DNA of 38,489 bases from Flavipsychrobacter sp. (GTDB lineage Bacteria > Bacteroidota > Bacteroidia > Chitinophagales > Chitinophagaceae): the NCBI GenBank assembly GCA_025963465.1, contig JAOQAP010000026.1, positions 1-38,489 on the forward strand. Direction: 5' to 3'. Under the pieces are notes generated by a model. The model searched no databases and had not been told where the DNA came from. It saw only the letters and a list, made by a program, of their open reading frames with translations. The position numbers and the translations under genes are program-made. Of the stretch, positions 18,419 through 23,058 are shown in pieces. Position 1 is the stretch's first letter. Each line of letters opens with the position of its first letter.

Positions 18419-20197
18419 TTATGAGGCATATATCTGCTCTATTTCTTTTGAGAATTTCTGCTCTATTACCTTCCTCTTCACTTTTAGCGATGGTGTCAGC
18501 TCACCGGTATCTATGGTCCATTCTTCAGGTAAAAGAGCGATCTTCTTTATTTGCTCAGGGTGGCTGAACATCACATTGTATTTGTCTATTTGTTTTTGCA
18601 TCTGCGCTGTCACTTCCGGCATTTTTATCAGCTCGCTGTTATTGTCAGTTATGCTCATATTCGGGTAGTTGTCGCGCATGTACTTTCTCAGCTGCATAAA
18701 GCTGGGCACTACCAGTGCACTCACAAATTTCCTGTCAGCGCCCACCACCATCATCTGCTCTATAAATGGGCTTTCCTTCATTTTGTTTTCCAGCACCTGC
18801 GGCGCTACATATTTGCCACCCGACGTTTTGAATATCTCTTTCTTCCTGTCAGTTATCTTCAGGAAACGGCCCTCTACCCACTGGCCTATATCACCAGTAT
18901 GGAACCAACCATCCTGCATAGCAGCTGCCGTAAGCTCGGGATGCTTATAATAACCAATAGCCACGTTAGGGCCCTTTATCAGCATTTCCCCGTCCTCAGC
19001 TATTTTCACCTGTACATTATCTATCAGTGTACCTATTGAGCCTACCCTGCGGTCTTTGCTTTCAAACCTGTTCACAGACACAACAGGAGATGTCTCGGTG
19101 AGTCCGTACCCTTCCATGATCACAATATTTGCTGCGGAGAATATACGTGTCAGTCTTTCCTGGCAGGCGGCTGACCCTACAACTATAGCCTTTACATTAC
19201 CACCCAGCGCTTCCCTCCATTTGCTGAAAATGATCTTATTGGCCAGCCACAACTGGAACTGGTACCACGGATTGCCGGGCTTTGCATTATCATATCTTTT
19301 TCCCAGGTCCAGCGCCCAGAAGAACAATACCCGCTTGATACCTTTCAGGTCCATAGCAGTGTTCATGATGCGTTCGTACACCTTTTCCAGCAGTCGTGGC
19401 ACGGTAGTGAACACCAGTGGTTTTACTTCCTTCAGGTTCAGGCCTATTGTATCCATGTTCTCTGCATAGTATACCGCAACACCTGAGTGTATGTATACGT
19501 AAGTTACCATGCGCTCAAAAATGTGATTGAGCGGTAAGAAGCTCAATGCCTTACTCCCCTTTTCTGCAAAGGTGAAGGCCGGTATGGAATCACGCACATT
19601 GGATGTAATGTTATCATGGGTCAGCATGACCCCTTTAGGATTTCCGGTAGTGCCTGATGTGTATATGATAGTAGCCAGTGTTCCGGGCTTTATACGGGCT
19701 ATCACGCTTTCATCCGGCTGCAGGTTTTTATTGATCAGTTCCTTCCAGTTAGGAACGCCCTCTATTACATCAAATGAATATACACTTTTCAGTGTAGGTA
19801 TTTCCTTCAGTGCGTCTTTAAAACGCTCATATATCTCGGCATTGGCTACAAAACATATCTGCACACCGGCTTCACTCAATACATAGGCAAGTTCCGCAGG
19901 GCTGATAGTAGGATATACAGGTGTCAATACTGCACCGGTAAGCTGTACGCCTATATCTGTCATCATCCACTCCGGCCTGTTTGGCGAAATGATTGCGATC
20001 TTTTCCTGCTGTTCTGGTTCCAGCACCTGGTTAGCTATACCCAGCGACAGTAAACCTCCGGCCAGCTTACGTGCAGTTTGCCACACCTCGCTGCTACTGT
20101 AGGTACGCCACTGGCCGTTCTCCTTCGCAGCCAGCATTATGGCATCAGGTGCCTGCTTGCTCTGCTGTTCTGCTATATCAAATAGACGCTGAATCAT
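18419..20197 (-). CDS. Long-chain fatty acid--CoA ligase (AMP-forming)
   Basis: This 592-residue ANL-superfamily enzyme activates fatty acids to acyl-CoA through an acyl-AMP intermediate. The P-loop-like A3 motif YTSGTTGNPKG is at residues 179-189. The adenylate-binding GYGLTETSPV lies in the middle, and the FACS region DGWFHTGDIG is followed by the DRKKEIFKTSGGKYVAPQ hinge and catalytic-Lys segment. Length and motifs fit the long-chain FadD/eukaryotic ACSL-like branch. No signal peptide is seen. It is divergent from the BlaI-type repressor gene; the 156-base gap carries three palindromes, which could also affect this gene. A -7-like TATTTTG (minus strand, 20262-20268) lies upstream. Confidence 0.94.
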   Translation of the reverse strand: MIQRLFDIAEQQSKQAPDAIMLAAKENGQWRTYSSSEVWQTARKLAGGLLSLGIANQVLEPEQQEKIAIISPNRPEWMMTDIGVQLTGAVLTPVYPTISPAELAYVLSEAGVQICFVANAEIYERFKDALKEIPTLKSVYSFDVIEGVPNWKELINKNLQPDESVIARIKPGTLATIIYTSGTTGNPKGVMLTHDNITSNVRDSIPAFTFAEKGSKALSFLPLNHIFERMVTYVYIHSGVAVYYAENMDTIGLNLKEVKPLVFTTVPRLLEKVYERIMNTAMDLKGIKRVLFFWALDLGKRYDNAKPGNPWYQFQLWLANKIIFSKWREALGGNVKAIVVGSAACQERLTRIFSAANIVIMEGYGLTETSPVVSVNRFESKDRRVGSIGTLIDNVQVKIAEDGEMLIKGPNVAIGYYKHPELTAAAMQDGWFHTGDIGQWVEGRFLKITDRKKEIFKTSGGKYVAPQVLENKMKESPFIEQMMVVGADRKFVSALVVPSFMQLRKYMRDNYPNMSITDNNSELIKMPEVTAQMQKQIDKYNVMFSHPEQIKKIALLPEEWTIDTGELTPSLKVKRKVIEQKFSKEIEQIYAS

Positions 20198-20284
20198 ACC
20201 TAAATTTATACAATTATTCTTTTCATCTACCGTTAATTATTTATACCTGCCGCTCACAGAACAAAATATTTATTTTCATCTTTT

Positions 20285-20340
20285 AACTAAATAATTAGTT
20301 AATTAACTAAATAGTTAGTACATTTACTAAAAACTTAGTT
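20285..20340. promoter_or_regulatory. Three phased palindromic operators upstream of the BlaI-type repressor
   Basis: Three sites match ACTAA-N4-TTAGT exactly: 20286-20299 (spacer ATAA), 20306-20319 (ATAG) and 20326-20339 (AAAC). Their starts are exactly 20 bp apart, about two helical turns, so all face the same side of the helix. Sites 1 and 2 also create a second perfect palindrome at 20295-20310. The -7-like TACATTTA (20319-20326) lies between sites 2 and 3, ending 27 bases before the repressor start. Autorepression by the adjacent BlaI-family protein is the straightforward reading. The motif differs from the classical BlaI/MecI/CopY core TACAnnTGTA. Confidence 0.8.
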
Positions 20341-20353
20341 TAACGAACTGTTA

Positions 20354-20734
20354 ATGAAGACAAATTTCAAACCACTGACCAAAGCTGAAGAAGAAATAAT
20401 GCAGGTGCTCTGGCGGCTGGAACAGGCCTTTGTAAAAGATATAGTAGATGAGCTGCCAGACCCCAAACCACACTATAATACCATAAGCACTATTATAAAA
20501 ATATTGGTAGACAAGGGCATAGTAGCTTCAGAATCTTTTGGAAAATCGAACCGGTACTATCCTCTTGTAAAAAAAGATGAGTACACAAAAAAGACCATGA
20601 AGCAATTTCTGAAAGGATACTTCAATGGCTCTTATGCAAACATGCTGTCCTTCTTTGCCAAAGAAAAAGACATCAGCATAGAAGAGCTGGAAAGCATATT
20701 GAAAGAATTAAAAAATGATAAACCTAAAAAATAG
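20354..20734 (+). CDS. BlaI/MecI-family transcriptional repressor
   Basis: This 126-residue protein has the winged-helix pattern of the family: LTKAEEEIMQVLWRLE, then a recognition region HYNTISTIIKILVDKGIV and a wing with NRYYPLV. A C-terminal dimerisation helix segment (SIEELESILKELK) follows. Classical members dimerise on palindromes upstream of their own gene and are cleaved when a partner membrane protease senses a signal. The M56 protease gene starts 6 bases after its stop, matching that arrangement. Three palindromes lie 14 to 68 bases upstream of the start. No beta-lactamase is nearby, so the regulon is unlikely to be simple beta-lactam resistance. Confidence 0.93.
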   Translation: MKTNFKPLTKAEEEIMQVLWRLEQAFVKDIVDELPDPKPHYNTISTIIKILVDKGIVASESFGKSNRYYPLVKKDEYTKKTMKQFLKGYFNGSYANMLSFFAKEKDISIEELESILKELKNDKPKK

Positions 20735-20740
20735 ACCATC

Positions 20741-21973
20741 ATGCTTTATCTATTTCAAGTTACCGTTTATTCAGCACTGCTGTATGTTATATACATCACA
20801 GTAATAAAAGATCGCGCTGCCCACAGTTTCAGCCGTGCGTATTTGCTATTATGCGCCACTTTACCGCTGGCAATCCCTTTCATGTACATACCGGCATTGG
20901 CTGACAACATAATTCAGCTGCCAGGCATCACCAGGATATTGTTACCGGACGTAACCATTTTATCAAAGGGCGGTATAGCAACAGCCAATGGAGGGCTGAC
21001 ATTCAATATACTCGCCGCATCATATCTGCTTATAACATTGGTACTCATTGCCCGCACTGCAATACAGTATATTTCCTTTATCCGCTTTGTAAAAAGACAT
21101 GAGTACAAAACGATCAACGGAGTAAAAGTGCTACTGAATACCCAGACAGGCCCCGGCAGCTTTATGCAATACATATTTCTCCCTGGCAGCTCTATTGATC
21201 CTGTCATCTACGAGCATGAACTGGCACATATAAGATCAAAGCACAGCGTGGATATTCTGTTCATGCGTATACTCCGGGCATGCTTCTGGCCAAACGTGGT
21301 CTTATACTTCATTAATAAGGAACTGAAGATCATACATGAATTCCAGGCTGATGCCCGTTCTGTAAGCAATAAAGAGACATACATCAATGCCCTGCTCAAC
21401 GATACATTCAACACCAACTGCTTCGCTTTATCACATACCTTCTTTTATCATCCTTTAAAACGTAGAATCATGATGTTACAAAAAGCACCGTTAAGCCACG
21501 CAAAATTGCGCAATACTGTGCTGAAAACATGTTTTTCAGCCGTCGTTGTGCTCTCAGGCATTATATACCTGCAAAGCTGTAAGCCACAGGCAGAGCCGCA
21601 GAAAGATAAGCCTGCTGCCATGAAAACTGTATATGATACAATAAGTGCCGGAAAAATATCGGGGCACAGGGAAGTCCTGACATTTGCTGAGAAAATGCCA
21701 ACTACAAACTACGATCTTGGCAAATATTTGGGGCAAAACATCAAATACCCTGAAAATGCACGTAAAAAAGGCATACAGGGCCGGGTTATAGTCAGGTTCA
21801 TTGTAAATGAAAATGGGGCGGTTTCTGATGCCAGCGTAGTGAACGCGGCAGATCCCGAACTGGCAGCTGAAGCACTGAGAGTTATATCTGCTATGCCACC
21901 ATGGACACCTGCTGAGCAAAAAGGGCAAAAAGTAGCAGTATATTTTACACAGCCTATAAGTTTCAAAATTTAA
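20741..21973 (+). CDS. M56 (BlaR1-like) membrane metalloprotease with C-terminal TonB-C domain
   Basis: This 410-residue protein is fused from two parts. The first 280 residues are a BlaR1/MecR1-type M56 gluzincin with several transmembrane segments. Its zinc site is HELAH (H159, E160, H163), with a further acidic ligand in the HEFQAD segment near residue 201, and a final TM helix lies near 262-280. After a short charged linker the C-terminal 85 residues form a TonB C-terminal-like domain (QGRVIVRFIVNENG to FTQPISFKI). This domain takes the place of the penicillin-binding sensor of true BlaR1. It is likely to cleave or inactivate the adjacent repressor in response to an envelope signal. The signal is unknown, and penicillin sensing is not supported. 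Confidence 0.9.
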   Translation: MLYLFQVTVYSALLYVIYITVIKDRAAHSFSRAYLLLCATLPLAIPFMYIPALADNIIQLPGITRILLPDVTILSKGGIATANGGLTFNILAASYLLITLVLIARTAIQYISFIRFVKRHEYKTINGVKVLLNTQTGPGSFMQYIFLPGSSIDPVIYEHELAHIRSKHSVDILFMRILRACFWPNVVLYFINKELKIIHEFQADARSVSNKETYINALLNDTFNTNCFALSHTFFYHPLKRRIMMLQKAPLSHAKLRNTVLKTCFSAVVVLSGIIYLQSCKPQAEPQKDKPAAMKTVYDTISAGKISGHREVLTFAEKMPTTNYDLGKYLGQNIKYPENARKKGIQGRVIVRFIVNENGAVSDASVVNAADPELAAEALRVISAMPPWTPAEQKGQKVAVYFTQPISFKI

Positions 21974-21986
21974 TAATAGTATTCCT

Positions 21987-22012
21987 AAAACCCCGGTAAA
22001 TCCGGGGTTTTT
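21987..22012 (+). terminator. Rho-independent terminator of the repressor/M56 operon
   Basis: The stem AAAACCCCGG/CCGGGGTTTT with a TAAAT loop is followed by T residues. It starts 13 bases past the M56 stop and just before trpS. Confidence 0.92.
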
Positions 22013-22059
22013 ACTATCTATTTCTTTACGTTCCTGCCCTTTTGTATCTTGCAGCCCTT

Positions 22060-23058
22060 ATGAGTAAGGAAATTGTTGTGAGCGGCATACGCTCTACCGG
22101 GCATTTGCACCTGGGTAATTATTTTGGGGCTATACAGAACTACGTGATGATGCAGGAAAATTATGACTGCTACTTCTTCGTGGCAGATTATCATGCCCTC
22201 ACCACACATCCCGATCCAAAGGAGCTTAAAACAAATGTCTTTCGTGTACTGGCAGAAAATATAGCCAGCGGCCTGGACCCTGAAAAAGTAGCGCTATATG
22301 CACAAAGCGATGTGCCGGAGATACCTGAGCTGTACCTGTTGCTGAATATGAGCGCCTACAAAGGCGAGCTGGAAAAAGTTCCTACGTTTAAAGATAAAGT
22401 ACGTCAGCACCCTGATAATGTGAATGCAGGCCTGCTCACCTACCCCGTACTTATGGCCGCGGACATACTCATACACCGTGCTGTGAAAGTACCTGTGGGC
22501 AAAGACCAGGAGCAACACCTGGAAATGGCGCGCAACTTCGCACAGCGCTTTAATGGCCGCTATAGTGAATTCTTCCCTGAACCACAGGTATTCCGGTTCA
22601 ATAACGATACCGTAAAGATCATGAGCCTGGATGGTAATGGTAAAATGAGCAAAAGTGAAAATGCCAATAACACCATATTCCTGAGCGATGATGACGACCT
22701 GATAAAGAAAAAAATAATGAAGGCAAAAACAGATGCCGGCCCTACAGAGCCCAATGCTGTAATGCCCGATTATATACAGAACCTGTTCCTGCTTATGCAC
22801 CTTACCTCCAAACCGGAAATAGTGGATATATACAGGAGCCAGTACAATAATTGCAACATCCGTTACGGCGATATGAAAAAACAGCTTGCTGAAGACATGG
22901 CGGCATTTGTGCGCCCTATTCGCGAGCATGCAGCAGAATTGCAGAAAGATGAAGCATTGCTGAAGAAAATACTGAAGCAGGGTGCCGAAAAGGCACGTGC
23001 CAGTGCATCAGTAACTATAGATGGCGCAAGAAAGTTGATGGGAATAAACTATTATTAA
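22060..23058 (+). CDS. trpS: Tryptophanyl-tRNA synthetase
   Basis: This 332-residue class I synthetase charges tRNA-Trp. The HIGH-like signature is TGHLHLGN (residues 13-20) and the KMSKS loop is GKMSKSEN near residues 194-201. The PVLMAADIL and GKDQEQHLE segments are typical of the tryptophan/ATP site. The frame can be extended to a TTG at 22042, but the ATG at 22060 starts directly at the conserved MSKEIVVSGIRSTG region and is preferred. It follows a terminator, so it needs its own promoter; none matching the -7 consensus at a sensible distance is obvious. Confidence 0.97.
   Translation: MSKEIVVSGIRSTGHLHLGNYFGAIQNYVMMQENYDCYFFVADYHALTTHPDPKELKTNVFRVLAENIASGLDPEKVALYAQSDVPEIPELYLLLNMSAYKGELEKVPTFKDKVRQHPDNVNAGLLTYPVLMAADILIHRAVKVPVGKDQEQHLEMARNFAQRFNGRYSEFFPEPQVFRFNNDTVKIMSLDGNGKMSKSENANNTIFLSDDDDLIKKKIMKAKTDAGPTEPNAVMPDYIQNLFLLMHLTSKPEIVDIYRSQYNNCNIRYGDMKKQLAEDMAAFVRPIREHAAELQKDEALLKKILKQGAEKARASASVTIDGARKLMGINYY

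Follow-up and report, generated by a model that had tools for sequence, protein, structure and literature searches.

The window, a stretch of 38,489 nucleotides from Flavipsychrobacter sp. (contig JAOQAP010000026.1, positions 1 to 38,489), contains a BlaI-type repressor gene with three palindromes directly upstream and a membrane protease gene directly downstream. The features at the locus are as follows.

18419-20197, minus strand: AMP-binding acyl-CoA ligase gene, divergent (Pfam)
20286-20299, no strand: putative operator site 1 (ACTAA-ATAA-TTAGT), reaching into the -33 region; predicted span -45 to -32
20306-20319, no strand: putative operator site 2, ACTAA-ATAG-TTAGT; predicted -25 to -12
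20319-20326, plus strand: predicted -7 box TACATTTA, in the linker between sites 2 and 3
20326-20339, no strand: putative operator site 3 (ACTAA-AAAC-TTAGT), spanning the predicted transcription start; predicted span -5 to +9
20354-20734, plus strand: BlaI/MecI-type winged-helix repressor, 126 aa (PF03965, sequence and fold)
20741-21973, plus strand: M56 (BlaR1-like) membrane metalloprotease with a C-terminal TonB domain (Pfam, HELAH)

The repressor carries the Penicillinase_R family domain (PF03965, 114.3 bits against a cut-off of 22.6), and its recognition helix comprises residues 41-53, with Asn42 encoded at 20477-20479 and Ile50 at 20501-20503. A structure model of the protein (mean pLDDT 73, weaker in the C-terminal part) predicted a winged helix and a C-terminal dimerisation fold like those of MecI and BlaI, the top Foldseek matches being MecI (1okr, E 1.1e-6) and DNA-bound BlaI (1xsd, E 2.4e-6). 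The M56-TonB gene starts 6 bp after the repressor gene, and the two likely form one operon. As in BlaI-BlaR1 pairs, the adjacent gene encodes an M56 metalloprotease, based on a Peptidase_M56 score of 28.8 bits (just below the curated cut-off of 31) together with a HELAH motif in the protein sequence; TonB_C scored 72.6 bits. This protein is presumed to be the sensor that inactivates the repressor. Pfam detected no penicillin-binding sensor domain on it, and no beta-lactamase or PBP2a target was found among the seven other window proteins scanned, which included both neighbours and one protein without a family. The Phe100-Phe101 bond of the repressor aligns with the Asn101-Phe102 bond at which S. 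aureus BlaR1 is described to cleave BlaI (PMC9834060). Phe101 thereby falls at the aligned P1' position, at which 3 of 11 aligned relatives have another residue (Tyr, Leu or Met; L039 is one of the three).

The sequence-only reading had reported ACTAA-N4-TTAGT at 20286, 20306 and 20326 with spacers ATAA, ATAG and AAAC, and the positions, spacers and perfect arms were all confirmed. Site 3 ends 14 bp before the ATG of the 126-aa Penicillinase_R protein. The exact motif matched three times in the whole window, always within the array, and five times in the whole genome (4.18 Mb, 277 contigs), three of them being the array; the reversed control pattern matched twice. When the 156-bp intergenic region was dinucleotide-shuffled 20,000 times, one site appeared in 56 of the shuffled sequences and two sites in none.

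Palindromes upstream of BlaI genes

To compare the array with those of relatives, we used the window BlaI protein to search 117 genomes of the family (an even sample of a larger group, its own genome being one of the 117), and read the upstream regions of all 140 matches (82 genomes, E up to 1e-20). An HExxH-bearing ORF followed BlaI in 128 of the 140 loci. At least one exact ACTA-N6-TAGT site lay within 150 bp of BlaI in 77 members and a 20-bp pair in 47, and 100 dinucleotide shuffles of the 140 regions gave a mean of 0.6 sites (maximum 3) and no pairs. Searched without reference to genes, tandem ACTAW-N4-WTAGT at 20 bp occurred at 56 places in 48 of the 117 genomes (reversed control 0), representing 51 distinct arrays, that of the window included, because five three-site arrays give two places each. 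Fifty-one of the 56 places were within 300 bp upstream of a BlaI match, and two further places head BlaI operons, in which a TPR gene (G096) or a membrane-protein-like ORF (G070) precedes BlaI. In total, 48 of the 51 distinct arrays were at a BlaI gene or operon. The three at other genes therefore suggest a wider regulon in some species; one array away from BlaI adjoins a redoxin/AhpC-TSA gene (L231:2540-2573), and another separates a peptidase M1 gene from a 368-aa ORF (L229:2959-2992).

The same association was obtained from named genomes (best 80 of 592 relatives, with Chitinophaga, Pontibacter, Rufibacter and Sunxiuqinia among them), at least one of which overlaps the family set, L248 being the same contig as family genome G050. 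The sequence-only reading had assigned the palindromes to the adjacent BlaI and named absence of the motif upstream of orthologous pairs as evidence against this; the check came out the opposite way, with at least one ACTA-N6-TAGT site within 250 bp upstream in 73 of these 80 loci, two or more in 70 and three or more in 20, and 79 of their 92 intervals were 20 bp. Best-matching loci outside the family had a site in 19 of 25 cases, 6 of the 19 with an 18-bp pair. Among BlaIs with Asn42 and Ile50, 151 of 179 were preceded by a site pair (up to one mismatch each, 17-32 bp apart), against a mean of 0.45 in mononucleotide shuffles searched in the same way; an exact site was missing at 25 of the 179, and a near-match pair was present in only 4 of these 25. 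The comparison thus ties the motif to the repressor gene.

TPR-like proteins recurred with BlaI-M56 pairs, either behind a 20-bp array or as the third gene of the operon (L230:2969-3002, L232:2582-2615, L263, L272 and L312; the Pfam check covered L230, L232 and L263). A second 20-bp pair was seen about 130-150 bp further upstream of BlaI at L312 (3753-3786), L263 and L272, the one at L312 being immediately ahead of a divergent gene.

The array lies in the intergenic region shared with the divergent acyl-CoA ligase gene, and the sequence-only reading had suggested co-regulation of the ligase, which did not hold up in relatives. A ligase homologue was found upstream in 1 of the 140 family regions, that of the window itself (about 250-1500 bp upstream covered), and directly beside the array in none of the 80 named loci. 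At L256, whose BlaI is the closest among the best 80 of 592 (89% identity), the ligase is about 1.2 kb off with two ORFs between; at L246 it is 2.9 kb away, and at the other 78 named loci none was found within the DNA covered. The three-site members L241 and L242 have non-ligase upstream ORFs, and in the window 88 bp separate the ligase start from the nearest site. Divergent co-regulation may occur elsewhere, as the divergent gene at L312 has its own 20-bp pair near its start. Control of the ligase through a shared operator is improbable.

The genome encodes four PF03965 proteins, each with different palindromes just upstream.

Window BlaI: three ACTAA sites
Paralogue BlaI-B, contig C142: two ACTA-type sites, 25 bp apart
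Paralogue on contig C31: ACGT-type palindromes
Paralogue on contig C239: ACGAA-type palindromes

The cell thus seems to hold several insulated BlaI circuits. Among the matches listed, a pair of the C142 kind also occurred at C174 and C133. Paralogue-B-type pairs with 24-25 bp spacing were located before a regulator-propeller protein gene (L025:3423-3460) and in the gap that separates an outer-membrane beta-barrel gene from a Por-secretion-tail protein gene (L024:3684-3722), and are candidates for a BlaI-B regulon. The receptor beside BlaI-B (L026:2400-4007) combines an M56 protease and an N-acetylmuramoyl-L-alanine amidase domain in one protein (Amidase_3, 105.5 bits), a fusion that hints at a signal from peptidoglycan. 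A wider regulon of the window repressor was sought and rejected: a 20-bp pair with up to three mismatches was detected genome-wide only at the array (two overlapping matches; reversed control 1). Of the two exact single sites elsewhere, that at L029:2492 falls within an ORF in a group of ribosomal-protein-like ORFs, and that at L030:2269 precedes a 290-aa ORF by 31 bp; their number is no excess over the reversed control (2). Relaxed ACTA-N6-TAGT singles were uninformative, with 56 matches versus 181 for the reversed control among the matches listed, and pairs of such sites pointed to the BlaI-B targets instead. Within this genome, the regulon of the window repressor is probably limited to its own operon.

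It could be argued, with nothing specific in its favor, that the palindromes form RNA hairpins or serve some other regulator not linked to this locus, and that their position here is accidental. Such a coincidence is very hard to credit, given the 48 of 51 distinct arrays at BlaI, the separate palindromes just upstream of all four BlaI paralogues of this genome, and motif variants that track the recognition-helix residues of BlaI (see below).

Promoter position, spacing and proposed mechanism

The Bacteroidota -7 box is described as TAnnTTTG (PMC9723704, PMC7366714) and as spanning -12 to -5 (PMC9723704). With the box between sites 2 and 3 placed accordingly, transcription would start near 20331 and the sites would span -45 to -32, -25 to -12 and -5 to +9. 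The array is thus predicted to tile the core promoter of the repressor gene, with site 2 between the -33 and -7 elements and sharing one base with the latter, so that repeated dyads would cover the repressor's own promoter as in BlaI operators. The window box ends in A, not G, no clear -33 TTTG was seen at the array, and a sigma-70 scan of 20150-22100 returned no match between the two genes, sigma-70 not being the promoter type expected here.

The position of the sites relative to a -7-like box was recovered by comparison. Among the 43 relatives that carry a single 20-bp pair, the consensus two bases after site 2 was TA-N-N-TT-T/C-G. Of the 48 family members whose 20-bp pair lies within 200 bp, 26 had an exact TAnnTTYG after site 2 in the stretch searched and 22 had none. 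Of 17 unique 20-20 arrays, 13 had TAnnTTYA joining site 2 to site 3, where only the inner A and TTY are informative because the first T and last A are site bases; the other four (L281, L289, L300 and L307) had a box-like sequence after the third site. Site 1 had the same position in the three-site relatives. At L240 (BlaI 84% identical), sites 1 and 2 are kept and followed by a perfect TACATTTG and site 3 is absent, and L246 likewise has two sites, suggesting that the -7 box stayed in place while a third site was acquired or lost next to it.

The spacing was analyzed for 203 unique BlaIs whose residue 50 is Ile, Thr or Val, counting adjacent intervals of up to 60 bp. Of 186 intervals, 129 were 20 bp, 11 were 24 bp, 9 were 18 bp, 8 were 25 bp and 2 were 21 bp, with the others scattered; intervals of 24-31 bp were also present in other members. 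This preference points to a fixed arrangement but not to one of exactly two turns. The sequence-only reading had taken an "exact two-turn spacing" to suggest cooperative binding, which was overstated, as two turns would be 21 bp. Cooperative binding of dimers to one helix face, at the same repressor sites, is a possible but rather unlikely source of the phasing. The predominance of 20 bp and the 17 unique 20-20 loci, four of which have the third site differently placed relative to the -7-like box, are in its favor. Against it, 20 bp is 1.9 turns of 10.5-bp DNA, both 18-bp pairs and 24-31-bp intervals exist, a site directly before the -7-like box recurs in the 20-bp and 18-bp layouts inspected, and CopY with two operators is reported to show no cooperativity (PMC7253601). 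Promoter geometry can explain the spacing at least as well, and no cooperativity is needed to impose it.

We infer, with a probability of roughly 0.87, that the adjacent BlaI-type repressor uses the array as its operator and that the array serves promoter-occluding autorepression relieved by the M56-TonB protease. A repressor dimer would bind each 14-bp palindrome via its recognition helices, and three dimers would cover the core promoter of the blaI-M56/TonB pair from about -45 to +9. With the promoter covered, RNA polymerase would be blocked, and the gene pair is therefore proposed to repress itself. An envelope signal would activate the M56-TonB membrane protein, which may then cleave within the repressor's C-terminal domain, close to the conserved Phe; this cut would derepress the operon.

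Half-site bases, recognition-helix residues and known operators

The motif had been described as distinct from the classical TACAnnTGTA, which is correct in that the window has ACTAANNNNTTAGT with A at base -3; the two motifs share the same 14-bp frame, however, and most of their difference lies at bases 3 and 7, counted from the dyad. In an alignment with MecI, Ile50 of the window protein corresponds to Arg51 and Asn42 to Lys43, and the model places both residues inside the recognition helix of the MecI/BlaI fold. The window motif, without the C of TACA, thus goes with Ile at the position of MecI Arg51, and relatives with Arg50 have CTACAnnTGTAG. In PadR regulators, an Arg of helix 3 is described as the same residue that makes sequence-specific DNA contacts in RTP or BlaI (PMC3506622), and the BlaI residue meant would be the Arg aligned here with residue 50.

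The half-site counts cover the 244 unique sequences among 245 upstream regions and come from a search that allowed any nucleotide at base -3. Base -3 was A in 569 of 668 half-sites with Ile50 (T 87, G 6, C 6), C in 21 of 24 with Arg50 and T in 14 of 20 with Thr50; it was mixed with Val50 (two BlaIs) and Asn50, the latter having a site of the searched form in 2 of 31. At base 7 of symmetrical sites, Asn42 was accompanied by A (352/355) and Thr/Ser42 with Arg50 by T (10/10), and the single Ser42/Ile50 site had A. The sole BlaI combining Asn42 and Arg50, in G085, had ACTACAATTGTAGT, which combines both bases, plus a second, mixed site; this protein does not belong to the clade formed by the remaining Arg50 proteins, its exact place in the tree being poorly supported. 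Other palindromes in the 140 family members were ACGTA-N4-TACGT (11), CGAAA types (20), CCTAA (7) and CTACA (8), with 12 members fitting no motif class and 5 only a loose one.

Motif and helix residues co-vary in this comparison. Mutual information over all columns was confounded by clade, with the top columns outside the helix, and positions 42 and 50 were singled out because of their location in the recognition helix. As the motif classes largely follow clades, few independent changes support a residue-base rule. We consider it an even bet that Bacteroidota BlaIs use a two-position code in which residue 42 sets base 7 (Asn gives A; Thr/Ser with Arg50 gives T) and residue 50 sets base 3 (Ile gives A, Arg C, Thr mostly T), with the promoter tiled through gain or loss of additional dimer sites, permitting insulated circuits to coexist. 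If so, an Ile50-to-Arg repressor should prefer ACTACAnnTGTAGT over ACTAAnnnnTTAGT, and several BlaI circuits, four in this genome, would coexist, each with its own operator.

The analysis assigns a putative operator to the large, little-studied Bacteroidota BlaI-M56 group and places it on their unusual promoter, which may explain why the textbook BlaI motif would miss targets of these pairs. The residue-to-base rule is testable, and the regulons of these presumed envelope-sensing systems could be predicted from sequence. Searches of the literature for the literal motif strings found no paper, and no title among the matches listed for Bacteroidota BlaI/M56/TonB operators concerned this operator.

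The locus resembles those of S. aureus and B. licheniformis BlaI/MecI in the Pfam family and fold of the repressor, the adjoining BlaR1-type membrane protease gene and the dyad frame of the operator, the OP1 oligonucleotide containing TTACATATGTAA. It differs in the half-site (ACTAA here, TTACA there), in Ile50 at the recognition-helix position of MecI Arg51, in the TonB domain of the receptor, and in having no beta-lactamase or mecA partner among the neighbours scanned. The consensus of M. tuberculosis BlaI (Rv1846c), TACTACAnnTGTAGTA, has ACTA in the same register, with C at -3, unlike the window. In the B. licheniformis bla divergon, dimers bind repeated operators, three in number (PMC3305447), as is proposed for the window array. 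CopR/CopY has two operators upstream of 67 of 88 cop operons, for which a block of promoter elements was proposed (PMC7253601), but the cop consensus is RNYKACANNTGTMRNY, the distances between two operators are mostly 24-39 with a mode of 26, and control is by metal rather than by a protease. The DAP-seq half-sites of C. thermocellum BlaI_0696 and BlaI_1845 are given as GTCTAT and GACTAT, the latter containing ACTA, and these proteins likewise have ordered inverted-repeat pairs upstream of their own operon, and small regulons; unlike the window, they have two dyads rather than three, and the arms for BlaI_0696 are five nucleotides apart (PMC8457756). Repeated dyads are thus already known from C. 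thermocellum, CopY and B. licheniformis, and the window array is a variant of this arrangement.
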